From: Candidatus Moraniibacteriota bacterium
Lineage (GTDB): Bacteria; Patescibacteriota; Minisyncoccia; Moranbacterales; UBA1568
Assembly (NCBI GenBank): GCA_018061645.1
Contig: JAGOTT010000008.1
Location: 1-56,928, forward strand
DNA: 56,928 bases
Reading direction: 5' to 3'
Shown here: positions 21,963-52,454 of the stretch, in pieces
Numbering within the stretch: position 1 is the first letter of the stretch
Layout of the letters: every line of letters starts with the position of its first letter
Program-made: the position numbers and the translations under genes
Notes under the pieces: model-generated
The model's input: the letters and a program-made list of their open reading frames with translations, nothing else
What the model was told of the DNA's origin: nothing
The model's database searches: none

Positions 21963-22706
21963 TTAGGATTTAACCTCGTCTTCCTTCTTCTTGAATATGA
22001 ACAGTTGTTGGATGATAGCAAAAACCGTCGAAACAAGCCAATACAAGGAGAGGCCGGCTGGAAACGTGATGCCAACCCAAAGAGTGAGCACTGGTCCGAT
22101 ATAGAGCATCTGCTTGTTCATGATAGTCGCAAAATCCGGCTGGGCATCATCCTTCTTCTTCGCTTCCGTCTTTTTCGGCTGGGACGCGATAAGCATCTTC
22201 ATCTGGTAGTATTGCCCCGCTGCGGCGAGAACCGCGAACAATCTGCTTGGCTTCGCGAGATCGGCTATACCGAAAAATGTATGCGAGAGCGTCCCTGGAT
22301 TCGAGACGAATGAATACAATATCGAAGAATCGACGGAGAATTCTGTCTGGGATATCTTCATGATGATCTGATAGATCGTGATAAGAAACACGATCTGTAC
22401 GATAAGAGGAAGACACCCGGCAAACGGATTTACCTTGTTTTCACGATAGAAATTCATCAGTTCCTTCGCCTGCCGCTCCTTGTCGTCCTTATATCTCTCC
22501 TGAATTTCCTTCAGTTTCGGCTGTATTTCCTGAAGTTTCTTCTGGGATTCTATCTGCTTCTTCGAAAGTGAGAGGAAAAGGAATTTGATAAGAATGGTCG
22601 TCGCGATAATGGCGATACCGAAGTTCGCTCCCGGAAACACATCCGCGAAAAAAACGATGGTGTTATACACCGGTTGATAGACGATTGCGTCGAATATTCC
22701 CATCAT
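21963..22706 (-). CDS. yidC: Membrane protein insertase YidC/Oxa1
   Basis: A 247-residue YidC of the short Gram-positive/CPR type without the large periplasmic domain. Five membrane segments can be placed: FFADVFPG...GIAIIATTILIKFLFL, the LPLIVQIVFLITIYQIIM pair, and FPAGLSLYWLVSTVFAIIQQLFIF at the end. The charged helical hairpin between them (KQIESQKKLQEIQPKLKEIQERYKDDKERQ) and the conserved Arg that follows TTILIK-type helices match the family. It inserts and folds inner-membrane proteins with or without Sec. It has the usual location between rnpA and khpB. Confidence 0.95.
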   Translation of the reverse strand: MMGIFDAIVYQPVYNTIVFFADVFPGANFGIAIIATTILIKFLFLSLSKKQIESQKKLQEIQPKLKEIQERYKDDKERQAKELMNFYRENKVNPFAGCLPLIVQIVFLITIYQIIMKISQTEFSVDSSILYSFVSNPGTLSHTFFGIADLAKPSRLFAVLAAAGQYYQMKMLIASQPKKTEAKKKDDAQPDFATIMNKQMLYIGPVLTLWVGITFPAGLSLYWLVSTVFAIIQQLFIFKKKEDEVKS

Positions 22707-22711
22707 AAAGC

Positions 22712-23053
22712 TTATGTTTTGACCCTGCTTATTTTATGAATGATCTCGGATACGGACTTTTTTACCGATTCCTTGTTAATCGGTACTTTTTTTCTGAGGA
22801 AAAAGACCATCTGCCAACCACCTGGAATTTCTTCATAGAGTTCTTGAATAGGATCGGCGAGTATTCTTTTCATAGCGTTCCGATCGACCGCTCTCGGAAA
22901 AAGCTTTTTTGAAACAGCGAAACCGATTTTTACCCTCGCACCATCCAAAAAGATGGCTCTGCAAGCTATATCTCCAAAGAAAAAGGGCTTTCCGCTACGA
23001 AAAGCCTTTTGGAAAAGAGACGCGTCCTTGAGTCGGAAGCGTTTTGGGAGCAT
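22712..23053 (-). CDS. rnpA: Ribonuclease P protein component
   Basis: A 113-residue RnpA, the protein subunit that helps RNase P RNA trim the 5' ends of tRNAs. MLPKRFRLKDASLFQKAFRSG is the family N-terminus. KIGFAVSKKLFPRAVDRNAMKRILADPIQELY contains the RNR-type signature, here read as VDRNAMKR with Lys/Arg positions kept. The start overlaps the very end of rpmH in the usual arrangement. The RNA partner gene is not found in this window. Confidence 0.95.
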   Translation of the reverse strand: MLPKRFRLKDASLFQKAFRSGKPFFFGDIACRAIFLDGARVKIGFAVSKKLFPRAVDRNAMKRILADPIQELYEEIPGGWQMVFFLRKKVPINKESVKKSVSEIIHKISRVKT

Positions 23054-23056
23054 ATG

Positions 23057-23191
23057 TCAGACGGAAAGTTTCTTTCTTCCCTGGATTCTTCGGCTTTTGA
23101 TCACCTTTTGACCACCATCGGTTTCCATTCGTTTCAGAAAACCATGGCGACGGACCCGACGCAGTTTTTTCGGCTGATACGTGCGTTTCAT
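23057..23191 (-). CDS. rpmH: 50S ribosomal protein L34
   Basis: A 44-residue L34, easily missed because of its size. The - strand reads [20 protein letters not shown] and then [20 protein letters not shown], ending KLSV: the classic L34 pattern of YQPs, a basic run, HGF and R..GR..L. It is the first gene of the rpmH-rnpA-yidC-khpB operon, which runs away from dnaA, so the dnaA-rpmH intergenic gap marks the classical bacterial origin region. Confidence 0.97.
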
Positions 23192-23297
23192 AGGAAAATT
23201 AAGAAAGACATAAAAAATGCTCTTTCGAGCTCGATATGAAGAATACCTGAATATCGCGCGGAAGTCAATATGACAAAATAAACGATCATATCAAAAC

Positions 23298-23317
23298 TTA
23301 TACACCGGTTATGCACC
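23298..23317 (+). promoter_or_regulatory. Two DnaA-box-like 9-mers upstream of dnaA
   Basis: TTATACACC (23298-23306) and TTATGCACC (23309-23317) fit the DnaA-box pattern TTATnCACa except for the last base. They lie between rpmH and dnaA and may serve autoregulation of dnaA. Confidence 0.6.
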
Positions 23318-23344
23318 AGGATGAATGACTCCGAAAAACAACTA

Positions 23345-23353
23345 TGCTATACT
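23345..23353 (+). promoter_or_regulatory. Extended -10 promoter element of dnaA
   Basis: TGC-TATACT is an extended -10 box ending 17 bp before the dnaA ATG, giving a leader of only about ten bases. No good -35 is seen, which the extended -10 may offset. Confidence 0.55.
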
Positions 23354-23370
23354 TTCCTTCACGGAAAAAT

Positions 23371-24789
23371 ATGACAAATGAGGAGCTTTGGAAAGCTGTA
23401 CTTGGACAAGTCGAGCTCTCGATATCGAGAGCTGGTTTTCGTACATGGTTCCAGAATACCTCCATTCTTTCGAAAGAAAACGGTGTAGCGACCATAAGTG
23501 TTCCGAATGGGTTCGCAAAAGAGTGGCTTGAAAACAAATATAACCTCATTATTCTTCAGTCGTTCCGGAATTTTGAGGATGGTATACGGGAAATACAGTG
23601 CATCATATCCGGACCACAACAACCAGTAAACACGGTAAAGTCAATCGATGCAGCCCGTCAATCAGGTGGATTCATGATGCCGACCAATCAACATCCGTCC
23701 CAAGAAAAAAACAGTGTGGTTCAGCAACAAACATCCGTTCCGCTTCAGACGACCGCGCTTTTTCATGAATCGAACCTGAATCCACGATATACGTTCGATA
23801 ATTTCGTCGTAGCGGAAAATAATGAGCTTGCCCGAGCGGCCTGTTTCGCGGTATCGCAAAATCTCGGAAATATCTATAACCCACTCTTTATCTACGGCGG
23901 GGTCGGATTAGGCAAAACACATCTTCTTCAGGCTCTTGGAAATGAAGTAAGAGAGAAACATCCGGGGAAGATTATAAAATATATCACATCAGAGCGGTTC
24001 ACTAGTGAGCTTATCGATGCCTTAAAAAACCAGAAGATAGACAAATTCAAGGAATACTACCAACAAATGGATCTTCTCATCATCGACGACATACAATTCC
24101 TTTCAGGCCGGGAGAAGACTCAACAGGAATTTTTCCACATATTCAACGCATTGTATCAAATAAACAAACAAATCATTATTTCAAGCGATCGGCCTCCGAA
24201 ATCGATACAAACACTCGAAGACCGCCTTCGGTCGCGTTTCGAGGGTGGGATGATCACAGACATCAGCCATCCGAACACGGAAACAAGAACTGCTATATTG
24301 AAGCGGAAAATAGCCGAAAAAAACATCACACTTGATGATGATGCCGTCTCGTTCATCGCGGAGAATATAACACAGAATATCCGCGAACTCGAAGGTGCCC
24401 TGAATCGGATCATTGCTTATTCCGAATTCTATAAAACACCACCATCTGTTGATATGGTGGAAAAAATACTATCCCAACTCATCGTGCAAGGGAAAAAAAG
24501 TGTGCAAGGGAAAGATGTTATAGAGGCAGTAATAAGACAATACTCCGTCACTTCGGAGGATCTTATGAAGAAAGGGAGGAAAAAAGGGATTTCACACCCA
24601 AGGCAAGTCGCTATGTATCTCATGCGAAGTGAATTAAGTATGTCATTCTCATCCATCGGAAGTTTTTTCGGAGGAAGAGATCATACGACTGCACTCCATG
24701 CATTTGAGAAAATAAATAAGGATCTTGAAAAAAATCTCCGCTTGAAAGGGGAGATATCCTCATTAAAGGATGCACTCTATCAACAATAA
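23371..24789 (+). CDS. dnaA: Chromosomal replication initiator DnaA
   Basis: A 472-residue DnaA. Domain I (ELWKAVLGQVELSISRAGFRTWF) is followed by a Gln-rich linker (about 90-135) and the AAA+ domain: Walker A GGVGLGKTHLL, Walker B LLIIDDIQFLSG, sensor/Arg-finger region LEDRLRSRFEGGMITDI. Domain IV ends the protein with the DNA-binding signature GGRDHTTALHAFEKI. The start is the ATG of MTNEELW; an upstream in-frame ATG at 23344 lies inside the -10 box and cannot be the start. The gene faces away from rpmH and is followed by the candidate oriC and dnaN. Confidence 0.98.
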   Translation: MTNEELWKAVLGQVELSISRAGFRTWFQNTSILSKENGVATISVPNGFAKEWLENKYNLIILQSFRNFEDGIREIQCIISGPQQPVNTVKSIDAARQSGGFMMPTNQHPSQEKNSVVQQQTSVPLQTTALFHESNLNPRYTFDNFVVAENNELARAACFAVSQNLGNIYNPLFIYGGVGLGKTHLLQALGNEVREKHPGKIIKYITSERFTSELIDALKNQKIDKFKEYYQQMDLLIIDDIQFLSGREKTQQEFFHIFNALYQINKQIIISSDRPPKSIQTLEDRLRSRFEGGMITDISHPNTETRTAILKRKIAEKNITLDDDAVSFIAENITQNIRELEGALNRIIAYSEFYKTPPSVDMVEKILSQLIVQGKKSVQGKDVIEAVIRQYSVTSEDLMKKGRKKGISHPRQVAMYLMRSELSMSFSSIGSFFGGRDHTTALHAFEKINKDLEKNLRLKGEISSLKDALYQQ

Positions 24790-25027
24790 TTTGTATAAGG
24801 AGTGTATAAGTAGTGAAATACACCGTTCATATCATGGATAAGAAGTGTCTAAAAAACGACATCCATGAAATAATACCAAGTGATGTGTGTAACCAGTAAG
24901 GATACAGGTATATAAAAACACTTTATATAAAAAGGAAAGATTTAAAATAAAAGCATAATCGGTGTTTATACACCTATTCACACACCTAATAACAATAAGA
25001 TTTTTTTATATTTTTTAATATCTTCTT
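24790..25027. other. Candidate replication origin (oriC) between dnaA and dnaN
   Basis: This 238-bp gap is very AT-rich and has DnaA-box-like 9-mers on both strands: TTATACACC at 24966-24974, TTATACACT on the - strand (24801-24809), and related CACACACC and TACACC motifs around 24827 and 24980. The last ~40 bp before dnaN are almost pure A/T and could be the unwinding element. Position between dnaA and dnaN is the usual place for oriC. Confidence 0.7.
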
Positions 25028-26182
25028 ATGAAAATCACTTGTACACAGGAAAATCTCGCTCGATCACTTACCTATCTCGAAAGAGCAACTGGGAAGCAAT
25101 CAACACTTCCTATCCTAAGCAACTTCCTTCTTTCCGGAGGAAAGAGTGGATTAAAGCTTTCAGCTACAAACCTTGAAATTGGCGTCATATCAGTCATAGG
25201 GGCGAAAATTGAAGGAAGTGGAGAAATAGCGGTTCCAGTGAAGATTGTCAGTAATTTTGTCCATAATCTCCCTTTGAATGGAATCATAATCCTTGAACTT
25301 AATGAGAGAACGCTTTCACTGGAGAGCGGCGGGTACAAAATGAAGATTCGCGGACTTGATCCGAAGGATTTTCCGATCATTCCTGAAAAAAAAAGAGATT
25401 ATCTCCTTTCTCTTCCAGCGCAAGAATTCAAGGAGGCGCTCCAAAGACTCCTTCCTTGCGTTTCAGTTAATGAGAGTCGTATAGAGCTTACTGGTGTGAA
25501 TATGCTTTTTTTTGAAAAGGAACTGCATATCGCCGCTACAGACAGTTTCCGTCTCGCTGAACAGATTATACCCCTTTCGGATGATGGGAAGAGTTCGGGA
25601 TACGTGGATTTTTCAATGAATATGCCATCACTTATTCTTCCGCAGATGGCGATGCAGGAAATCGCACGCATCATTTCTCCGGATTCGAAAGAAATTCAAT
25701 TCGCATTCGAGGAAAATCAGGTATTTTTCGATATTGATGGTGTTTCCTTAGTATCTCGTGTCATAAACGGGAAATATCCGGATTATAAGCAGATCCTTCC
25801 GAAAAAATTCTCATATACCGTAAAAATATCCCGAGATGAACTTCTTCGATCCGTCAGAATGGCTGGAATATTCTCCTCTCAGATGCACGGAGAAATGCTT
25901 CTTTCACTTTCTCCTGAAAAAGGAGAGCTGGCTGTCTCATCGCAATCTTCCGATATCGGTGAAAATAAAACGATACTTCCTATCGAAGCGACCGGAAACG
26001 GATCGCTTGAGATGTTTTTTAATCCGAGATATATTTTGGATGGATTAAATGTCCTTAATTCAGAATATATCCTCCTTTCCGCGAATTCCGGTACAACCCC
26101 GATAGAACTCCGCGCCGTACATGAATCAATGAATGCTATACCCGATGGTTTCCTATATATAGCGATGCCGGTGCGAAAATAA
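25028..26182 (+). CDS. dnaN: DNA polymerase III beta subunit (sliding clamp)
   Basis: A 384-residue beta clamp that tethers the replicative polymerase. MKITCTQENLARSLTYLERATGKQSTLPILSNFLL is the typical N-terminus. The three repeated clamp domains can be followed through TNLEIGVI, AATDSFRLAEQIIP (domain II signature ATDSyRLA) and FNPRYILDGLNVLN near the end. The C-terminus YIAMPVRK matches the family ending MPVRL/K, part of the partner-binding groove. It follows the origin gap and precedes a DciA-like gene. Confidence 0.97.
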   Translation: MKITCTQENLARSLTYLERATGKQSTLPILSNFLLSGGKSGLKLSATNLEIGVISVIGAKIEGSGEIAVPVKIVSNFVHNLPLNGIIILELNERTLSLESGGYKMKIRGLDPKDFPIIPEKKRDYLLSLPAQEFKEALQRLLPCVSVNESRIELTGVNMLFFEKELHIAATDSFRLAEQIIPLSDDGKSSGYVDFSMNMPSLILPQMAMQEIARIISPDSKEIQFAFEENQVFFDIDGVSLVSRVINGKYPDYKQILPKKFSYTVKISRDELLRSVRMAGIFSSQMHGEMLLSLSPEKGELAVSSQSSDIGENKTILPIEATGNGSLEMFFNPRYILDGLNVLNSEYILLSANSGTTPIELRAVHESMNAIPDGFLYIAMPVRK

Positions 26183-26193
26183 CTCCGTACTGT

Positions 26194-26499
26194 ATGAAAA
26201 AAATAGGGGATATATTCGCATCTATCCAAAAGAAAAGGAAAATAGGATCCATTTCAGATAAAATCGATGAAAAAACCGTATTGTTTCTTATTGAAAAGAT
26301 TATCTTGTCGCAATATGGAATCCGAGGACGGGAAAATATCATTCCGAAGTCATTCAAGGAGAAGAATATATACATTCTTTGTCGGAGTTCCCTTTGGATG
26401 AATGAGTTATGGATGAATAAGGATGTCATCATAAGAAAATTAAATCAGGAATTAGGTGACGGATCCGTTTCCGATATAAGACTAACGGAAATGTTCTGA
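26194..26499 (+). CDS. DUF721/DciA-like protein
   Basis: A 101-residue protein with the DUF721 pattern: an N-terminal helix, a basic DNA-binding stretch and the strand-turn LCRSSLWMNELWMNKDVIIRKLNQELG that matches the family motif of an aromatic-rich strand followed by a helix. DUF721 proteins include DciA, which loads the replicative helicase DnaB in bacteria that lack DnaC and DnaI. Its place 11 bp after dnaN supports such a role, as DciA-like genes often lie near the origin. The assignment rests on pattern and context only. Confidence 0.75.
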   Translation: MKKIGDIFASIQKKRKIGSISDKIDEKTVLFLIEKIILSQYGIRGRENIIPKSFKEKNIYILCRSSLWMNELWMNKDVIIRKLNQELGDGSVSDIRLTEMF

Positions 26500-44635: not shown

Positions 44636-45331
44636 ATGACCGACCAAGAATTGGATGGGTATATTCGAGAGCTTGGCATAGCCAAGGATCATATCCTCCG
44701 GGAAGAGGCGGAAATGGACTTTCTCGATGCCCTTTCCCGTACGAAGATTTCAAAAAAAATCCTGTTCTATGGGGGCACGGCATTGCGGCTCGCGTATGGG
44801 TCTCCGCGGTTTTCCGAGGATATAGATCTGTTGTGTGCGGAGGAAGTGACCTTCTCCGAATTCAAGGAGCTGATTAATGAAGTAGTCAGGCGGTATGCCG
44901 GGCGTTTTGAACTTCGTGATATCAAGGGGAAGCGCAATACCCTTTTCGCGCTGATTGCCGTCCGGGATAGCCGATTGAAACACGCCTTTTCCGTGAAAGT
45001 GGAACTGCATCGGCATATTCCAAAGGTATCGATGAAGACGGAGCTGGTGCTGCTGAGGAGCCCGGTCAGCGCGAACGCGCCGCTCCTCCTGGTGCCGACA
45101 CTTTCGGAGCTCAAGCGGATGAAAGAATCGGCGCTGGCCGGAAGAAAGAAGGCGCGGGACATCTTCGATCTCTGGTACATCGCGCAGGTGTCGCGCCAGG
45201 CATTCACCGTTCCTGACGATGCACCACAGTATGGGAAGCGGGAATTCTCGAATGAACTTCGGGTTTTCCTTCCGCATGCGTATTATCCCGTCATCGAACA
45301 ACTCTATGAGAGGACTCATCCAAGACATTGA
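44636..45331 (+). CDS. AbiEii-type nucleotidyltransferase toxin
   Basis: A 231-residue protein of the AbiEii/MenT nucleotidyltransferase family. ILFYGGTALRLAYGSPRFSEDIDLL holds the GG(T/S) and DxD motifs of the DNA polymerase beta-type fold. FSVKVELHRHIP supplies the third acidic strand, and LPTLSELKRMKESALAGRKKARDIFDLW matches the family motif with the catalytic Lys and Asp. Known members block growth by adding nucleotides to tRNA or similar targets. It precedes its partner gene and overlaps it by 26 bp. The usual order in AbiE systems is antitoxin first. Confidence 0.88.
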   Translation: MTDQELDGYIRELGIAKDHILREEAEMDFLDALSRTKISKKILFYGGTALRLAYGSPRFSEDIDLLCAEEVTFSEFKELINEVVRRYAGRFELRDIKGKRNTLFALIAVRDSRLKHAFSVKVELHRHIPKVSMKTELVLLRSPVSANAPLLLVPTLSELKRMKESALAGRKKARDIFDLWYIAQVSRQAFTVPDDAPQYGKREFSNELRVFLPHAYYPVIEQLYERTHPRH

Positions 45332-45878
45332 GCGCATTCCAAAGGAATACTTTTCGATAACCGATATCGCCAAAATATCGTCGCTTTCCGACGGAAGTCT
45401 CTGGGTCGCGCTCTCGCGTCTCGTAAAGCAAAAAAAACTCTCGCGGCTTGCGAGGGGATGGTATGCGCGGGATATCGTCCGCGTGGATTTCGAAGCGCTC
45501 GCGTTGGATGTGTCCTCGGGCGGCTATATTTCGTTCGAGTCGGCGCTGGCGCGATATGGAGTCTTGAGTCAACAACCGATGGCGATAACCGTCGCGACCA
45601 AGGGGCCCGGGAAATCCATCATCGCCGGCGGGCGGGAATTTCTCTATCGGCATCTCCAGCCGAAATTGTTGTGGGGCTATCGGAAAGAAGGGGATATCCT
45701 GGTTGCTGATCCGGAAAAGGCATTTCTCGATCTCGCGTATCTCTCGCTCAACGGATACGCGCATTTCGATCCCGGAGAAATGGATACCTCTCTCCTTGAT
45801 CGAAAAATTATCGATCGGTATCTCAAGCGGATCGGCTCTTCGAGACTCACCGGTTTCATTGAAAAGATATTCTTATGA
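45306..45878 (+). CDS. AbiEi-type antitoxin and autoregulator
   Basis: A 190-residue AbiEi-like protein. The N-terminus, about 1-60, is a winged helix (YFSITDIAKISSLSDGSLWVALSRLVKQKKLSRLARGWYA). The following domain, GGYISFESALARYGVLSQQPMAITVAT and LVADPEKAFLDLAYL, is the AbiEi C-terminal toxin-neutralising domain. Antitoxins of this family bind inverted repeats in their own promoter; the 44597-44620 palindrome is the likely site. Translation starts inside the toxin gene, and it overlaps the next small gene by 4 bp. Confidence 0.88.
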   Translation: MRGLIQDIERIPKEYFSITDIAKISSLSDGSLWVALSRLVKQKKLSRLARGWYARDIVRVDFEALALDVSSGGYISFESALARYGVLSQQPMAITVATKGPGKSIIAGGREFLYRHLQPKLLWGYRKEGDILVADPEKAFLDLAYLSLNGYAHFDPGEMDTSLLDRKIIDRYLKRIGSSRLTGFIEKIFL

Positions 45879-46473: not shown

Positions 46474-46860
46474 TTACTGCACCGGACCCATATCGAGGAC
46501 CGTGACGCCGCGCTCGTCGTCGGAGCCGAGTGAGACGACCCTCCCCGAGTCGGCAATCGCGTCCTCGACTTCGCCGACGACGCGGGTGAGCTCCTCGGTG
46601 TCGCCCGGATTCCCGACCCGGTGGGATACGCCGAGGAAGGTGACCGGAAGGCCGCGGAGGAGCGCGCGGAATATCCGTGCGGACAGGTCCTGCCGGCCTC
46701 ATTCGTACGCCTCTTCCTCGGTCGCCCGGGAATAGTCGATGGACCATTGCCACCCCCTCTCGAGAAATCCCCCGAGCAGTCCTTCCGCCGTGATTTCCGG
46801 CGGCGCCTCTTTGGTTTGTCCGGCATACGGCCCGGACAATGCCGTGACTTTAATCGTCAT
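46474..46860 (-). pseudogene. Small cassette gene interrupted by an in-frame TGA
   Basis: Read on the - strand, 53 codons (MTIKVTALSGPYAGQTKEAP...SRATEEEAYE) end at TGA (46699-46701). The same frame continues without another stop for 74 codons (GRQDLSARIFRALLRGLPVT...ERGVTVLDMGPVQ). The second part has normal codon use and globular composition, while the other frames give Arg-rich shadow sequence. One TGG-to-TGA change would restore a 128-residue protein with YEWGR at the join. It has a good ribosome site (aaggagaggga). TGA ends other genes here, so this is probably a nonsense mutation, although readthrough is possible. It is the last gene of the ubiquitin-like cassette. No family is recognised. 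Confidence 0.7.
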
Positions 46861-46878
46861 TTCCCTCTCCTTGCTTGT

Positions 46879-46906
46879 GTCATCCTGAACGAAGTGAAGG
46901 ATCCCG
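46879..46906. repeat. REP-like palindrome 4
   Basis: GTCATCCTGAACGAAGTGAAGGATCCCG, a widespread short palindromic sequence, overlaps the ribosome-site region of the interrupted gene. Confidence 0.75.
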
Positions 46907-47047
46907 AAATTTTCGGTACCATTTTCCTTGATCGGTGTTGACGGGTTAAAAATACTTTGATCGATTCGACTCAACCTAAGTTGAGTGCTGGATCCATCAT
47001 TTGAAAACTCGTTTCGTCTCTCGAAAACGAATCCTCAAAAATGGAGA

Positions 47048-47067
47048 GGAACACGACCAAATGTTCC
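47048..47067 (-). repeat. Intercistronic hairpin, cassette copy 1
   Basis: GGAAC and GTTCC flank a 10-nt loop. The sequence around it resembles the hairpin element at 48802 (CTCAA-AATGGAG before it and AAACCATA after it), so the two appear to be copies. Confidence 0.5.
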
Positions 47068-47084
47068 CCGCCGAAACCATAACT

Positions 47085-47783
47085 TTACTTCCGAACCCGA
47101 GGCGCCGCCGCGTTCGCGACGATATCGAAGTACACCTCGGGCGAATCCCACCGATACTCTTTCTGCTCGAGCGCGTAGAACGCGTTGAGCATCAAGGTCG
47201 CGGCGGTGAGATTCGCGAAGATCAACTGCGGGGAGCTTGCCGCGAGCTCCTCGCAGGACATCTCGTAGGGTGCTTTATCACTCGGGGAGATGAATTCCGG
47301 ATGATATTTCTCCAGCCGGCAAGTCATGTCCTGACCCTGCCGACGAACGAACACCTGGACATTGCCGTCCGTGTATTCGTTCCCTCCGGAGATCAACGTC
47401 GTGTCGCGGAGGCCGGCGCAGTGATCGGCGATCGTCTTCCTCGTGCGGTGGTTGTCCACGCACGAGAAGACGACGTCGCCACTGCGGATGGCGTCGCGGA
47501 CGGGGAGCGTTCCCTCGGCACCATCGGCCGAGAGGTACTGCGCGAGGGGCTGGACGCGCAGACGCGGGAAGCGCCGCGCGATCCAGCCCGCCTGGACATC
47601 GGCTTTGGCTCCGAGTTCCTCGAAGCACTGCCGAGTCCGATTTTTTTCCTCGTACTCGTCCCCGTCAACGAGCACAAGGGTCCAGGTGTCGGCCCCGGAG
47701 TTGAGGAACGGCACGAGTGCTTGGAGCACCCACGATCCGATCCCACCGAGCCCGACAACGACGATACGCCGGTCAGCCGCCAT
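47085..47783 (-). CDS. ThiF/E1-like activating enzyme of the ubiquitin-like cassette
   Basis: A 232-residue ThiF-fold protein. The Rossmann start RIVVVGLGGIGSWVLQAL has the GxGxxG loop (11-16). LVDGDEYEEKNRTRQCF matches the DxD..E..N..RQ motif that grips ATP and activates the C-terminus of a ubiquitin-like protein. DVVFSCVDNHRTRKTI is the CxDN motif. A candidate catalytic Cys is Cys177 in PYEMSCEELAASSPQLIFANLTAATLML, a region that resembles PRTRC ThiF proteins. The CxxC zinc pairs of ThiF/MoeB are absent. It overlaps the JAB gene by 11 bp and has a strong ribosome site (aaggaggtcacc). The compact size suits the PRTRC group rather than thiamine or molybdopterin synthesis. Confidence 0.88.
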   Translation of the reverse strand: MAADRRIVVVGLGGIGSWVLQALVPFLNSGADTWTLVLVDGDEYEEKNRTRQCFEELGAKADVQAGWIARRFPRLRVQPLAQYLSADGAEGTLPVRDAIRSGDVVFSCVDNHRTRKTIADHCAGLRDTTLISGGNEYTDGNVQVFVRRQGQDMTCRLEKYHPEFISPSDKAPYEMSCEELAASSPQLIFANLTAATLMLNAFYALEQKEYRWDSPEVYFDIVANAAAPRVRK

Positions 47784-48696
47784 GGTGACCTCCTTTCTTT
47801 TTGGCCGGCAGGCGGAGTTTAGAAGCACTCTTCCCCGCCCGGCCAGTTGAGAAAAAATCGTCGGCCCGCGAAAGATCCCGCGAGCCCACCCTTGTCGTGC
47901 GCTCGGCCTCCTCGGCTTCGCGCGCCTCCCGATTGATTTTCGTGAGCTCGGCCTTGTAGGCCGGTTCCGCGAAATCACCGCGCCAGTAGCGCTCGTAGAG
48001 CGCGTCGGCGCGGGCAGCGAACGGCTCGGCGAGTCCGCGTGGCTTCGGCAACTTCATCGCCGAGAGCCATGCGGCGGGAATCGCCTCCGCCGGTGCCATC
48101 CCGTCGATCAATTCCGACGGGTCGACCATTGCCCGTTTCCCCTGCACCATGACGGAGCAGGAGTACTCGGGCACGGAGTTGAGCTTGCCGATGGTGATAT
48201 GCACCCCATCGAAAAACTCCTCGTCCGCGTGGTCGGTGCCGCTGTGGAACGCCGACATCGATGCATGGGAGTGGATTGTCCCCGCGACGAGCCATCCTTC
48301 CCGCTTCGGCGCCTTATCGTAGGACACCGACGCCGGCCCGGCGGTCTGGGCTGGCGGGACGAAGTCCCACGCGCCGGTGCCGGGCTGGTACAGGAGGTAT
48401 CCGGCGGCTTCCGACTGGTACTTGACGTACACAGAGCGGAACCACGCGGTCACCCGTCGCACCAGATCCAGCGGCAACTTCGCCGCCGTGAAGTCGATCG
48501 CGGCCGGAAGCGTCGGGAGACCCGACACCGTGTCGACCGCGATGAGCGCAACGGAGACACCGTTGCGCTTGAAGAATTTCCAACCCTCACTGTCGAGGAC
48601 GTAGGCGTAGTCCGCCTCGATCCCCGACACCTGAAACCCGGGCTCCCCGGCAAAGTACGCCGGAAAAATCCCATTTACCTTGAACAGCTCGCGCAT
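47773..48696 (-). CDS. JAMM/JAB-domain isopeptidase-like protein of the cassette
   Basis: A 307-residue protein with an N-terminal domain of unknown fold (about 1-85) followed by a JAB metalloprotease domain. The JAMM zinc motif is complete: Glu96 in YQSEAAGYLLY, then GWLVAGTIHSHASMSAFHSGTDHADEEF with His142, His144, Ser152 and Asp155, matching HxH-x7-Sx2D. JAMM enzymes cleave after the tail of ubiquitin-like proteins, to process precursors or release conjugates. A C-terminal basic, Ala-rich tail follows (SASKLRLPAKKKGGHHGG). The layout matches PRTRC protein A. The start is set by aaggaggagcccgcc; the gene overlaps thiF downstream. Confidence 0.88.
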   Translation of the reverse strand: MRELFKVNGIFPAYFAGEPGFQVSGIEADYAYVLDSEGWKFFKRNGVSVALIAVDTVSGLPTLPAAIDFTAAKLPLDLVRRVTAWFRSVYVKYQSEAAGYLLYQPGTGAWDFVPPAQTAGPASVSYDKAPKREGWLVAGTIHSHASMSAFHSGTDHADEEFFDGVHITIGKLNSVPEYSCSVMVQGKRAMVDPSELIDGMAPAEAIPAAWLSAMKLPKPRGLAEPFAARADALYERYWRGDFAEPAYKAELTKINREAREAEEAERTTRVGSRDLSRADDFFSTGRAGKSASKLRLPAKKKGGHHGG

Positions 48697-48801
48697 GGCG
48701 GGCTCCTCCTTTTTCATTTTGCGCCGTCGTGGGGCGGCGCAATCCCCATCGAATCCATCTTTGAGCCTGCAAACCAATATTTCATTTGCATTCTCAAGAA
48801 T

Positions 48802-48830
48802 GGAGGGAAGCAAAACCACTTGCTTCCTCC
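48802..48830 (-). repeat. Intercistronic hairpin, cassette copy 2
   Basis: GGAGGGAAGCAA and TTGCTTCCTCC pair over a short loop, with one bulged base. The 29-bp core is identical to that at 50526-50554. Confidence 0.75.
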
Positions 48831-48842
48831 AAAAACCATACA

Positions 48843-49232
48843 TTAACTCTCGACTTCCTCCTCGACCTCGACGAATTCGTCTTGGTCTGGCGCAACAACA
48901 GATTGTTGCTGCGCAGAAGAATCTCGTTGCACGGGCGATGTTTCGCCGCGTGCCGCTTTTTCTTCCCCGCCTTTCTGATGAGCGGGTTGGAAAACCTTTG
49001 CCCGGTAACAGGCGTTCACGAGGACAGCGAACCGGGCGGTCGCCGCCTCGTGCTCCTCGATTATCCCGCGCTTTCGGTAGATTGCCACCGCTTTGGCGGT
49101 GATGACCTCCGTAAACGTCCCCGACCACTGATCGAGCTGGTCGGGTGGGGTGACGAGGAATCGGTTGAGCCACTGCTCCAGCCGCTGCCCTTTTATGGGC
49201 TTGAGCTGGCTTGTTAACTTGAGGAGGTCCAT
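48843..49232 (-). CDS. Cassette companion protein with acidic tail (129 aa)
   Basis: A 129-residue protein with no recognised family. The first ~85 residues are helical and basic (LTSQLKPIKGQRLEQWLNRFLV, then IIEEHEAATARFAVLVNACYRAKVF). The last ~45 are low in complexity and end in an acidic stretch (DQDEFVEVEEEVES). It starts directly after the E2-like gene: the stop of that gene overlaps gcTAGcATG, and gggaggtgctagc serves as ribosome site. Its fixed place between E2 and JAB suggests a partner or adaptor of the conjugation system. Confidence 0.75.
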   Translation of the reverse strand: MDLLKLTSQLKPIKGQRLEQWLNRFLVTPPDQLDQWSGTFTEVITAKAVAIYRKRGIIEEHEAATARFAVLVNACYRAKVFQPAHQKGGEEKAARGETSPVQRDSSAQQQSVVAPDQDEFVEVEEEVES

Positions 49233-49233
49233 G

Positions 49234-49896
49234 CTAGCACCTCCCCGCGATGACGTCCGACAACCTGACCTCCGCCTCGAACCACTTGATCCCGAGCGGG
49301 AACAAAGGGTTCTTGGCGGACTCCTCCTGCCACGCCGTAAGCGACGCGACCTGGGGGAACTGCTTGGCCGCCGGCCGCCAGTTGTTGTCCTGGAGGTCGC
49401 CGTTGAAATGCGATCGCCAGAACTCGGCGACGAACGACTCGGCCTTCTGGGCGAGAGTCGTCCCGGATACACGAATGGATCCCGTGCATATCCGGCCGTC
49501 CTGGTAGGTGTTACACAGGTTTGGCCGGAGCACAGGATCGTCCGTGCCCCCGAGCGGGGCGGTGCGGTAGAACACGCGGCACGCCGCCGTGTCCACCGCC
49601 TCGCCCGCGAAGCTGAGGACGAACACGACAAACGGAAACGCGAGTTTCCACTTGTCGCCCTCCCCCATTCCCGACCAGTTCACCTGGTGGGTCTGGGGGA
49701 CCTGCTCGATCACGAATACAGAGCGGTTGCCCTGTGCGTGAAAGAACCGACACCCCGAGGGGAGGATCGGGGTCGTCACGCCTGACTCCTTCGCCGCCTC
49801 CGCGAGGAGGTCGGCGAGCGAGACGGTCCGCTGAACCGTCTCTTGAACGAGGGAGACGGCGTCCCCCTCAATCCGGAAGAATTGTCTGCTGGCCAT
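49234..49896 (-). CDS. E2-like protein of the ubiquitin-like cassette (PRTRC B-like)
   Basis: A 220-residue protein resembling PRTRC protein B and the prokaryotic E2 group D. Key region: LRPNLCNTYQDGRICTGSIRVSG, with a candidate catalytic Cys137 after the NxYxDGxIC pattern, followed by FVAEFWRSHFNGDLQDNN, a FW-x3-FN motif I associate with that group. The N-terminal ~110 residues carry beta strands (CRFFHAQGNRSVFVIEQV, KLAFPFVVFVLSF) as in the family. E2-like proteins accept the activated ubiquitin-like protein from E1 and pass it to a target. The ribosome site is aaaggaggacaac. Assignment is by motif memory, not by search. Confidence 0.75.
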   Translation of the reverse strand: MASRQFFRIEGDAVSLVQETVQRTVSLADLLAEAAKESGVTTPILPSGCRFFHAQGNRSVFVIEQVPQTHQVNWSGMGEGDKWKLAFPFVVFVLSFAGEAVDTAACRVFYRTAPLGGTDDPVLRPNLCNTYQDGRICTGSIRVSGTTLAQKAESFVAEFWRSHFNGDLQDNNWRPAAKQFPQVASLTAWQEESAKNPLFPLGIKWFEAEVRLSDVIAGRC

Positions 49897-50617
49897 GTTG
49901 TCCTCCTTTCAAAAAACGCCCTGCCATGGCGAGCATGGGCGTCAGGATTGAGAAAGAAGGTTCATTTGGGAGGCGTCAACCCTGACACGCCATACCTCCC
50001 TTCGGCTCACCGATTTTGCAACCGGCTGTCAGAGCTTTGCGAGGACGAACCACCCCCGCCGTTCCCGCACCCTTTCGCGCTTTACTTGGTCGTGTTCAGC
50101 TCCTGCATATTTTCCGAGTCGCTTCCTTCTCCTGTAACAGGATTGCCGGATCTCCTTAAAGGTCTGGCGCCGAAAGCTTCTCTTCCGATATCCATTTGCT
50201 AAACACTCGCGCCCGGCGTGTCCCCGGACCCAGCTGGCCTTGCGACGTACGATATTCTGTGCGTATCCAGCATGCGCATGGGTTTTTTGCCCGGATGAGT
50301 ACCCGAGCCATCCTCGTTTTTTTTTGCGCCACCCTGTTACCAGGCTCGCTGTGGCCTCAAGGTCGAAGGTTCCTTGAGATTTGCATTTATCCTTTGGGAA
50401 GGATGGGTCTTGCAAATTACCCGCCGGTTTTTTTATTTGCTCGTCGCTTCCCGGCGGCGACTTTCAGCAGTGTCCATTTTGTTTCTCCTCGGTTTCCACG
50501 CACCACCATTGATGCGCGGGAAAAAGGAGGGAAGCAAAACCACTTGCTTCCTCCGAACCGCTGCGCAGGTTGCCATCCTGCCGTGATTTTCCCGCGTGGC
50601 GAGCGCGGGAGAGTCCG
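49897..50617 (-). other. 720-bp gap in the cassette, with hairpin and no sure gene
   Basis: Two overlapping - strand readings cover the middle: a basic 128-codon frame (50029-50415) and a 51-codon frame starting MARVLIRAKNPCACW (50156-50311). Neither has the strong ribosome site that all the accepted cassette genes share, and the two may be one decayed gene with a frameshift near 50160. A hairpin identical to that at 48802 lies at 50526-50554. The rest shows nothing. Confidence 0.45.
50526..50554 (-). repeat. Intercistronic hairpin, cassette copy 3
   Basis: The 29-bp core GGAGGGAAGCAA-N-TTGCTTCCTCC is identical to 48802-48830. It lies 64 bp downstream of the ubiquitin-like gene's stop. Confidence 0.8.
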
Positions 50618-50824
50618 TCAGCCCTTGGTACCGCTGGGCTTGACGAACTCGAGTTCGTCTCCATTGGCGAGGACGTAGTCCTCGCCGAGGATTTCGCCGC
50701 CGACCGCGGGTTGCGCGGTCGGGTCGATGTTGAGCGCCTGCTCCAGCATGGCGCGGACGCTGCAGATGCTCTGGCCGGCGAGGCCGGCTTCCAGGGTATT
50801 CACCCCGGAGATGATTTTGTTCAT
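50618..50824 (-). CDS. Ubiquitin-like protein ending GTKG (PRTRC C-like)
   Basis: A 68-residue protein with a beta-grasp pattern. It has an N-terminal hairpin (MNKIISGVNTLEAGLAG), a central helix (SVRAMLEQALNID), and a last pair of strands (PAVGGEILGEDYVLANGDELEFVKP), ending SGTKG. The segment DYVLANGDELEFVKP matches the end of ThiS/MoaD-like and PRTRC C proteins, where the chain ends close after a G-D-x-(V/L) turn. A C-terminal Gly is exposed without any processing, so it could be activated directly by the ThiF-like enzyme. Ribosome site ctaggaggaaacc is strong. The family is inferred by pattern and by context with E1, E2 and JAMM genes. Confidence 0.75.
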   Translation of the reverse strand: MNKIISGVNTLEAGLAGQSICSVRAMLEQALNIDPTAQPAVGGEILGEDYVLANGDELEFVKPSGTKG

Positions 50825-51220
50825 GGTTTCCTCCTAGTGGAGACCCGATTCATCCCGTGCGCCATGACGCACACGGCCGGGCGCCCTTGCGAGCTGGTTG
50901 GCTGTGGGAGAACTGCGAAGAGAGACGATGAAAGTCCCTCTTTTTCCCTTTGATCCTCTTGAGGAAGAGGTATACACCCGCGAGCGAAGTTTCCGTCGCG
51001 GGAGACGAATCTCTTTCCCAAGTCTCTCTCAGAATCCTCAATAATGCTTTGAGAACTCAATCGAGAGGAGAAACGTACCATCGTTTCTCTCTCAACCTTG
51101 CGCCGGAGACCATCCGGCTTTTTGCCTTTTTGACTATCCTCCATCACGGGTGTCAGGCTACCCTTGGGGTGCGGTTTCTAAGACTGGAGAAACCGTCAAA
51201 ACCGAAGGAGGGGCTGGATC
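50825..51220 (-). other. Cassette interval with hairpin, no sure gene
   Basis: About 395 bp without a supported gene. A hairpin GAGAG..AGAAACG/CGTTTCTCTCTC lies at 51063-51093. Short open frames here lack ribosome sites and have Ser/Arg-rich shadow composition. Confidence 0.4.
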
Positions 51221-51451
51221 CTAGTGGATCCGCACCCTCCTCTGAACCGTCCGCTGGAGCGGGAACTGCCGCTCCAACTGGGCGCGGGTCGCGCGCCCGA
51301 GGCGGTCCCGAGGGACCGGCCGCTCCTCCACCAGCCCTTGCGGGCCGGTGAAGGAAATGAGCGCGTCATCGCCTTTGCGGGCGACGACGCGGGAAGACCA
51401 TCCTGCGTGGGCCAGATCGGCCCACGAACAATTTTTAAAACTGGTGACCAT
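51221..51451 (-). CDS. Small first gene of the ubiquitin-like cassette (76 aa, unknown)
   Basis: A 76-residue protein, basic overall, with no recognised family. It starts MVTSFKNCSWADLAHAGW and has a beta-rich middle (SSRVVARKGDDALISFTGPQGLVEERPVPRDRLG) and a basic end (QLERQFPLQRTVQRRVRIH). The middle may be a small SH3-like barrel, but that is a guess. gggaggaggccacc is a strong ribosome site of the same style as the other cassette genes. It lies first after the long leader, 370 bp before the ubiquitin-like gene. Confidence 0.65.
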   Translation of the reverse strand: MVTSFKNCSWADLAHAGWSSRVVARKGDDALISFTGPQGLVEERPVPRDRLGRATRAQLERQFPLQRTVQRRVRIH

Positions 51452-52425
51452 GGTGGCCTCCTCCCACACACAATGCCCGGCGCGCAGGAGTAATTTTTGG
51501 GGCGCGGGTACGCCTGTTCCTTTGAACTCACGAAGTTTCCTTCGCGGGCTCGGTTGGACCCCGCACCTATTTGTTCATAAATAGGTGCGGGACAGGAGGG
51601 GAAGCATGATTCGTTTGAACCCCTCCTCAATCCTCCCCTTGGAAAAGGGAGGAGGAAGAGGTGCTTCCCCGATGTATTCTTTCCACGCACTGATTTTCTC
51701 TGAAAATGAGTGTATGGATAAATTGTAAATGGACTTCCTTGGGGCTGCGGACGAGATCCCTCGACTACGCTCGGGATGACATCGGCGGCGACCAGAGTTA
51801 TTTTTTGACTCTATTTCTCAAGGACTATGACGTCTCTCATGGGGATTGTCCTCATGGGGGACGCGTACTCCTTGGGATGCAGGGTGATTCTCGGATCTTA
51901 TCCTGAAACTGGTTCTCTCTCGAGGCTCCGGAGTTCCGGAGACTACCCAGTTTCAGACTTCGATCACACACCGCTCGCAACGTGGTTAATGTCGCGCCTT
52001 GGGTTGCGGAGTAGGCAGAGCCCAGATGTGCATCCTTATGCTAAAAGGTACGAATTCTTTCCAATCTATCTTCTGAATTATTGGAAAGAGGATAGAGGGG
52101 AGGATGTCCGGAACTCCCGAATTCTCGGGGGAGGTCTCTCTCTGTCCCGCTTGTCCCGCACTTTCTGAAAGTGCGCGGATCCCGGCGTTGCCGTTTCGGG
52201 ACTTCCGGTTCATCCCTCACTAATTACCAAGGAAGTAATTGGTGAGGGACAGGCCTGTCTCCTCTCTATGACTCTCTCTAACAATCGATCTATTCTTTTG
52301 GTTGCAAGGTACTGGTATCTCTCTGCTTGGCGGGTCTCAATCGCCTGTCCCTCTTTTGTCCCCGTCCATATCGCTTTGCGAAATGTGCCGGGCAGGTCTC
52401 TTTGCCTCTCTCAATCTGACAGCAC
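51452..52425 (-). other. Long structured leader of the cassette transcript
   Basis: Almost 1 kb between the promoter at 52426-52454 and the first gene has no supported gene on either strand. It contains many hairpins: CCGCACCTATTT/AAATAGGTGCGG (51561-51590), CTGAAACTGG/CCAGTTTCAG with an inner CTCCGG/CCGGAG (51901-51957), GCACTTTC/GAAAGTGC (near 52167) and TCCCTCAC.AATTAC/GTAATT.GTGAGGGA (52213-52249), plus one REP-like element. It may hold small RNAs, regulate the cassette, or be a decayed gene region. Confidence 0.5.
51753..51780. repeat. REP-like palindrome 5
   Basis: GAGATCCCTCGA-CTACGC-TCGGGATGAC, in the leader of the cassette; another GTCAT...ATCC-type element read in inverse. Confidence 0.75.
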
Positions 52426-52454
52426 AGTATAGCATTATATTGACTAATTGTCAA
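52426..52454 (-). promoter_or_regulatory. Promoter and candidate operator of the ubiquitin-like cassette
   Basis: On the - strand TTGACA (52454-52449), a 17-bp spacer ending TGC and TATACT (52431-52426) are a textbook extended -10 promoter. TTGAC-N5-GTCAA (52440-52454) is an inverted repeat over the -35 box, resembling the repeat at 33653 and likely to bind the TrmB-like protein encoded on the other side. Confidence 0.85.

Follow-up and report, generated by a model that had tools for sequence, protein, structure and literature searches.

A putative ubiquitin-like conjugation cassette in a Moraniibacteriota genome and its relatives on large viral contigs

A 56.9-kb stretch of contig C25 (hereafter the window) from a Candidatus Moraniibacteriota bacterium, a member of the Candidate Phyla Radiation (CPR), carries on its minus strand (46474-51451) a cassette of six intact genes that all run in one direction, plus an interrupted gene. 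The cassette encodes a small ubiquitin-like modifier (Ubl), an E1-like enzyme, an E2-like enzyme and a JAMM protease, and it belongs to a clade of modules from CPR bacteria and viral contigs. We consider it likely, with a probability of roughly three in four, that it is a self-contained module for reversible Ubl conjugation that was acquired as a mobile cassette and has been kept for phage-host conflict. The source genome measures 1.0 Mb in 26 contigs and is rated 100% complete, and the genomes of its relatives span 0.5-1.4 Mb. Together with cassette relatives in Parcubacteria and Uhrbacteria, these sizes lend indirect support to the initial annotation of this sequence, which had placed the cassette on a probable CPR chromosome. 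All seven coding stretches listed in that annotation were found at or near their positions (Table 1), and its central claim of a complete E1, E2, Ubl and JAMM set holds, given that all four families were identified and their catalytic residues are conserved.

Components of the cassette

The Ubl is predicted to adopt a beta-grasp fold, on which the initial annotation had made its proposal depend. The AlphaFold2 model, built from 26 aligned sequences, has a predicted local distance difference test score (pLDDT) of 91.5 and a loose, flexible C-terminal tail (xGxKG). Its best Foldseek match is MoaD (1fm0, E = 6e-4), ahead of other MoaD structures and those of ubiquitin and SAMP. The 68-residue protein ends in GTKG, as first described, and K67-G68 is kept in 36/36 homologues. 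Two viral relatives encode poly-Ubl proteins: L188:3939-4571 has three Ubl units head to tail, each with an xGxKG end, as in a phage-type polyubiquitin precursor, and L070:3976-5082 has repeat units ending in NRTGTKG, 5' of E2-JAMM-E1. Since the conserved Gly lies at the unit boundary in these relatives, it is probably the point of processing and conjugation, and the window Ubl, which already terminates at this Gly, should therefore require no maturation. At two further loci (L159:7702-8172 and L161:7710-8177), an N-terminal Rho_N (SAP-like) domain, above the Pfam cut-off, is fused to the Ubl.

Residue conservation was assessed over 155-173 homologues for the enzymes and over 36 for the Ubl; these sets were gathered by similarity and are not independent samples, yet they include very distant members. 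The predicted E1 has the GxGGxG motif, D40/D42 and N48/R51/Q52, and the candidate catalytic Cys177 singled out in the initial annotation occurs in 168 of the 169 proteins aligned there, among 173 distinct E1s. It is the sole ThiF-family gene of the source genome, in which no ThiS/MoaD family match was found; the Ubl and the E1 should therefore pair with each other rather than make cofactors. The JAMM protein matches Pfam Prok-JAB at 26.0 bits (cut-off 25), and its full E/HxH/S/D set, reported from the start, is present and conserved as E96, H142, H144, S152 and D155. These residues are numbered from the better start at 48696, which is preceded by aaaggaggagcccgcc, whereas no ribosome site precedes the ATG at 48717. 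Of 163 JAMMs, 159 have H142/H144 and 162 have S152/D155, and the remaining rows are all gaps, so the H/H/S/D residues are practically invariant.

The E2-like protein matches Pfam Prok-E2_D (PF14460) at 28.2 bits against a cut-off of 25. Cys137, whose conservation was the other point on which the initial proposal had been made to depend, is kept in all 154 aligned homologues, and N129 in 154 of 155 E2s. When the E2 profile was compared with 177,635 PDB sequences, the 12 best matches were all eukaryotic E2s (UBE2L3, UBE2L6 and variants), aligned at HPN...C, the counterpart of N-x7-C, with weak E-values (0.15-0.74). The structure model of the protein is fairly confident (pLDDT 86.5).

Three small proteins of the cassette had been described as belonging to no known family, and for one of them, g129, this probably no longer holds. 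Six viral modules with Ubl, E2, JAMM and E1 have a gap between E2 and JAMM (L186, L188, L189, L190, L193 and L201), and hhalign aligned g129 to a profile of five viral proteins from the same slot with E = 2.2e-6 and a probability of 89%; in a control, g76 reached E = 0.41 against this profile. The viral same-slot proteins share a pattern around conserved Leu, Gly and Ala. The family has few members and aligns weakly (13-24% identity to g129), and we therefore regard the kinship, seen in several viral modules, as a good lead and not as proof. The other two remain orphans. For g76, NCBIfam, Pfam, PHROGs and PADLOC gave no match and the related loci nothing convincing; for the interrupted gene, no convincing homologue was found in NCBIfam, Pfam, PHROGs or related loci.

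A clade of CPR and viral modules

Relatives of the cassette are sporadic among bacteria close to its host. A search for the E2 in 95 genomes (its own and 94 relatives) matched the window alone, and the JAMM was found in 3 of 380 genomes of the phylum, the window counted. A PF14460 match within the phylum (G302) contains six in-frame stops and was rejected as a chance match. The first distant matches were Bacillota plasmids, followed by phages D69, Arash and MT835919; the E2-JAMM-E1 relatives in Vibrio phage D69 (L008) and Salmonella phage Arash (L009) are annotated as hypothetical or structural proteins. A viral scan with the single window JAMM protein gave no match, and profiles were required. 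For the genome JAMM scan an 8-row alignment was used, as a 13-row alignment was too diverse. The JAMM profile scans recovered 68 viral and 46 genomic loci, and the E1 scan recovered 148 viral loci, the 80 best of which were retained. Several contigs occur in both viral scans. E2, JAMM and E1 are co-linear in 104/148 viral loci and 35/46 genomic loci.

Phylogenetic analyses place the window in a group of its own with CPR and viral relatives. In an E1 tree of 142 rows, the window groups with all CPR-type rows and viral rows (SH-aLRT 98), apart from three plasmid PRTRC proteins, and in a tree of 81 rows, which leaves out long and gappy rows, it falls within a 28-row group with support of 100/99. 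The JAMM tree agrees: set against PRTRC, the 27 rows of the group cluster, and 33 rows (support 95) make up the smallest starred set with the window in it. Identity to the best E1 matches is 42-48% across most of the protein, and the nearest E1 in sequence is that of an uncultured bacterium (L116; 49%). Among named genomes, the closest JAMMs include those of a Parcubacteria bacterium (L113) and Candidatus Uhrbacteria (L115). Most clade members lie on viral contigs of about 26-527 kb, and of 18 viral records tested, 7 carry a terminase that scores above its family cut-off; their contigs measure 110-527 kb. A literature search of incomplete coverage found no report of this CPR/viral clade.

The initial annotation had inferred a reduced version of the PRTRC plasmid cassette. 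The trees do not bear this out, and the minimal E2-JAMM-E1-Ubl set is the norm of the clade. Matches to the PRTRC models (NCBIfam TIGR03734-TIGR03742) fell below the curated cut-offs: PRTRC_A for the JAMM (39.2 bits, cut-off 101.8, E = 5e-10), PRTRC_B for the E2 (23.2 bits, cut-off 131.45, E = 4e-5) and PRTRC_ThiF for the E1 (38.8 bits, cut-off 144.75, E = 6e-10). The absence of a ParB-related or actin-like partner, pointed out earlier, is confirmed for the whole source genome. The only ParB found there is generic, lies on another contig and scores 126.3 bits (cut-off 278.6) with a model that also matches in 8 of 14 ordinary control genomes, and the best PRTRC_D match, again on another contig, scores 20.7 bits (cut-off 214.8). 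For PRTRC E and F, neither g76, g129 nor the last gene had an NCBIfam PRTRC match.

Plasmid PRTRC cassettes, such as that of Paraburkholderia pl2WSM5005 (L245), have the order ParB-E-C-F-B-A-ThiF, with variants in other plasmid sets; in the three sets inspected, no gene in the stretch shown is annotated as D. The window shares with them the relative order of Ubl (C), E2 (B), JAMM (A) and ThiF, and its GTKG tail also occurs in PRTRC-like phage relatives. It differs in having no recognisable ParB, E, F or D, in the extra g129 between E2 and JAMM, and in the region C-terminal to the catalytic Cys of the E2, where plasmid PRTRC-B proteins have the His of an F/N-T-H motif. At this point, FNxD/WNxD-type residues are found in the window E2 and in most of the clade.

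Among the closest described systems is operon type 6d of Iyer, Burroughs and Aravind (2006), who proposed protein tagging and untagging for such operons, and whose Table 1 lists no CPR or viruses for this type (PMC1779556). Type 6d has a fully invariant His on the C-terminal side of the E2 Cys, a JAB with an N-terminal alpha+beta domain that includes conserved Arg and Trp, and an alpha-helical companion with conserved charged residues (PMC1779556). In common with it, the window has a small stand-alone Ubl with a C-terminal Gly, an E2 with a conserved Cys, and an E1 that lacks a rhodanese domain and is clustered with the JAMM. The JAB has an N-terminal region, but the Arg and Trp were not recognised there, and they are neither invariant in our JAMM alignments nor evident in all plasmid PRTRC-A examples. 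The helical g129 may correspond to the 6d companion, yet it is a different and smaller protein whose relatives were found only in viral modules. In contrast to type 6d, FNxD replaces the His, and the E1 and JAMM form a separate clade. We conclude that the cassette is a new version of the type 6d/PRTRC kind whose clade comprises CPR bacteria and large viral contigs.

Within this clade, the six viral modules aligned with g129 share with the window the order Ubl-E2-small protein-JAMM-E1, an xKG Ubl tail and, in most, a g129-like protein. They differ in their longer JAMMs, in Cys-containing genes downstream, in one poly-Ubl and in being on viral contigs rather than a chromosome. Conversely, modules of the same E1 clade in Parcubacteria (L113), the uncultured bacterium (L116) and a same-phylum genome (G135; L244) lie beside housekeeping genes, as in the window, and have the order E2-JAMM-E1-Ubl; no g129 was found in them, and in L113 and L116 the E2 is within larger proteins. 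Since the window has the gene order of the viral Ubl-first type whereas its nearest E1 relatives carry the Ubl last, the cassette may be a mosaic. 3' of the E1 in five of the viral modules (L186, L188, L189, L190 and L193) are paired-cysteine genes (e.g., CxxC...CxxxC in L190), with no Pfam match where scanned, which could possibly encode metal-binding partners or E3-like proteins. Most members of another viral group (L159-L168) have a second ThiF-family gene, diverged and about 290 aa long, downstream of the Ubl, and a same-class genome (G197; L243:2-5871) has two tandem E2-JAMM-E1 sets.

Related E1, E2 and JAMM chemistry is found in Bil/Bub defence operons and in Cap2/Cap3 of cyclic-oligonucleotide-based antiphage signalling systems (CBASS), and the window E1 profile matches both Cap2 structures and Citrobacter BubCD structures. 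Unlike type II CBASS, the window has separate E1 and E2 genes, a dedicated Ubl and no nucleotidyltransferase substrate; NCBIfam, Pfam and PADLOC identified no cGAS/DncV-like nucleotidyltransferase (CD-NTase) among the cassette proteins. In PADLOC the E1 shows only generic similarity to E1-E2 proteins, and PHROGs gave nothing convincing for the core besides generic E1 matches.

Proposed function and alternative explanations

Given the invariant E2 Cys and the JAMM, protein tagging and untagging is the simplest reading of the cassette. In this scenario, the E1 would adenylate the C-terminal Gly68 of the Ubl and then hold the Ubl as a Cys177 thioester, from which it would pass to Cys137 of the family-D E2 and then onto target lysines. 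The JAMM would remove the Ubl and, in relatives with poly-Ubl precursors, would mature it too. As the cassette has no recognisable E3, we suspect that g129 is an accessory protein that most likely serves as an adaptor for targets or as a partner of the E2.

The surroundings of the cassette form a variable island. In a same-genus genome (G002) tsaE adjoins polA, whereas in the window the two are separated by about 11.9 kb, which encode a TrmB-like regulator and a 902-aa protein in addition to the cassette and an AbiE pair. In genus g5, where the cassette is missing, polA is close to a TrmB-like gene and to the gene of a protein related to the 902-aa one. Other CPR-type cassettes adjoin different housekeeping genes, which we named from sequence as comM-like (L113), leuC-like (L116) and valS-like (L244), and we saw no phage genes next to the cassette, either in the window or in these three relatives. 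The varied neighbours and lack of phage genes are easier to explain by a small mobile cassette than by the remains of a prophage. The cassette most likely entered the tsaE-polA island as a mobile unit, and its mobility, its neighbours and its viral clade suggest that it was retained for phage-host conflict.

Several points weigh against this interpretation. What we observe is the gene content, the families, the conserved catalytic residues, a predicted Ubl fold, the clade and the island position; the activity, the order of transfer, the targets, the part played by g129 and the biological role are inferred, and expression is presumed. The argument for defence comes solely from context, namely the AbiE neighbour and sporadic occurrence. 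Foldseek found no E2 structure in the PDB for the E2 model (best E = 0.36); the assignment as an E2, put forward in the initial annotation, is therefore well supported by family and motif but was not confirmed by fold comparison. In addition, this E2 has FNxD where the downstream His is described for type 6d. The broken last gene, long non-coding gaps and internal terminator-like hairpins may reflect partial decay. In favour of the interpretation, GC content at third codon positions (GC3) is 0.68-0.87 in the intact cassette genes (0.80-0.87 in the Ubl and enzyme genes), compared with 0.44 in dnaA and 0.38 in dnaN, but it is 0.72 in the immediate neighbours tsaE and polA, so the contrast with these is modest.

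The strongest competing explanation, which we consider possible but clearly less probable, is that the module serves a mobile element: it would derive from phages or plasmids, be used by phages to modify host proteins, and now be a chromosomal passenger. The abundance of clade members on viral contigs, some with terminases, and the related sets on PRTRC plasmids and in phages D69 and Arash are consistent with this. Against it, phage genes were not seen beside the cassette here or in the relatives inspected, and the catalytic residues are intact. A decaying, non-functional insertion is improbable. The in-frame TGA that breaks the last gene, the roughly 720 nt of non-coding DNA that separate Ubl and E2, the internal hairpins and the absence of the cassette from all 94 relatives searched could be expected of one, yet the five core genes are open and retain coding bias and every catalytic residue, and the broken gene, for which related modules have no homologue, may not belong to the system. 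We give very little weight to a ThiS/MoaD-type sulfur-carrier pathway with a JAB, suggested by the nearness of the Ubl model to MoaD and the ThiF-type E1, given the conserved E2 with its invariant Cys137, the lack of a ThiS/MoaD match in the genome, a tail that ends in KG rather than GG, and the lack of metabolic partner genes in the cassette. Equally hard to sustain is a genuine plasmid PRTRC origin followed by loss of ParB, E, F and the actin-like gene, since the shared core order and weak PRTRC_A, PRTRC_B and PRTRC_ThiF matches are offset by scores below the cut-offs, a separate supported clade for E1 and JAMM, and the replacement of the E2 His by FNxD.

Reversible Ubl conjugation by a captured cassette, the interpretation that we prefer, extends complete E1-E2-ubiquitin-JAMM modules to CPR bacteria with minimal chromosomes. 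It also links these modules to a clade that is mostly on large viral contigs and includes a phage-type polyubiquitin gene. More speculatively, and with considerable doubt on our part, the clade could be a separate class of prokaryotic ubiquitin systems, based mainly in very large phages and equipped with poly-Ubl precursors and a small adaptor protein of its own, that CPR chromosomes captured for antiviral tagging in cells with genomes of about 1 Mb. The cassette is suited to asking whether phages and hosts turn the same tagging chemistry on each other. Given that it has five core proteins and that no competing E1 or Ubl is recognisable in the genome, it should be a clean system in which to study how bacterial ubiquitin-like tagging proceeds with no recognisable E3.

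Gene layout, transcription signals and surroundings

Table 1. Features of the cassette and its surroundings in the window, listed 5' to 3' along the minus strand
Feature	Position	Strand	Details
Candidate sigma-70-type promoter	52426-52454	-	TTGACA-17-TATACT; about 1 kb 5' of first gene
g76, orphan	51221-51451	-	76 aa; GC3 0.80; GGAGG ribosome site
Ubl	50618-50824	-	68 aa; C-terminus GTKG
Intergenic hairpin	50526-50554	-	GGAGGAAGCAAGTGGTTTTGCTTCCCTCC; 3' of Ubl gene; fold z -2.2
E2-like enzyme, Prok-E2 family D/PRTRC-B-like	49234-49896	-	220 aa; catalytic Cys137; N129-x7-C137
g129, small helical protein	48843-49232	-	129 aa; between E2 and JAMM; hhalign to viral same-slot profile
Second, identical hairpin copy	48802-48830	-	3' of g129; fold z -2.6
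JAMM/JAB isopeptidase (predicted), PRTRC-A-like	47773-48696	-	N-terminal JAB-N region; Prok-JAB above cut-off
E1-like ThiF-family adenylyltransferase (predicted)	47085-47783	-	ThiF 72.5 bits (Pfam); Cys177
Diverged third hairpin	47040-47074	-	3' of E1; 63% identity to other two, stem retained
Interrupted orphan gene	46474-46860	-	one in-frame TGA at 46699-46701

The genes had been said to share one style of ribosome site and one promoter. The first statement is borne out, with GGAGG-type sites ahead of most starts and a GGAG-type site ahead of the last gene. As for the second, there is a strong promoter candidate, identified by consensus match alone, with 11 of 12 consensus positions and a TG before the -10 element, in a scan that gave 9 promoter-like sites against 2.0 expected. 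A single transcript is at best tentative, given the terminator-like hairpins inside the cassette and its unusually long non-coding stretches (49897-50617, 50825-51220 and 51452-52450). The first two hairpins are identical and have no other copy in the genome, and a terminator-like hairpin lies immediately 5' of the E2 ribosome site. In an Rfam scan of the window, only five tRNAs were found, and the non-coding stretches match no known RNA family.

Both halves of the interrupted gene show coding GC3 (0.70 and 0.86) in a common frame. A second gene that crosses the TGA in another frame was rejected, as it has the composition expected when a gene is read out of frame. Readthrough of TGA under an alternative genetic code was ruled out: the Ubl and JAMM genes terminate in TGA, and because the TGA of the Ubl coincides with the end of its homologues, TGA is a stop codon here.

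The AbiEii/AbiEi toxin-antitoxin pair of the island is located at 44636-45878. Further away, at 22000-26200, the window has genes of the chromosome-origin type, named from sequence as yidC-like, rnpA-like, dnaA and dnaN, and the cassette is therefore about 20 kb from the likely origin.

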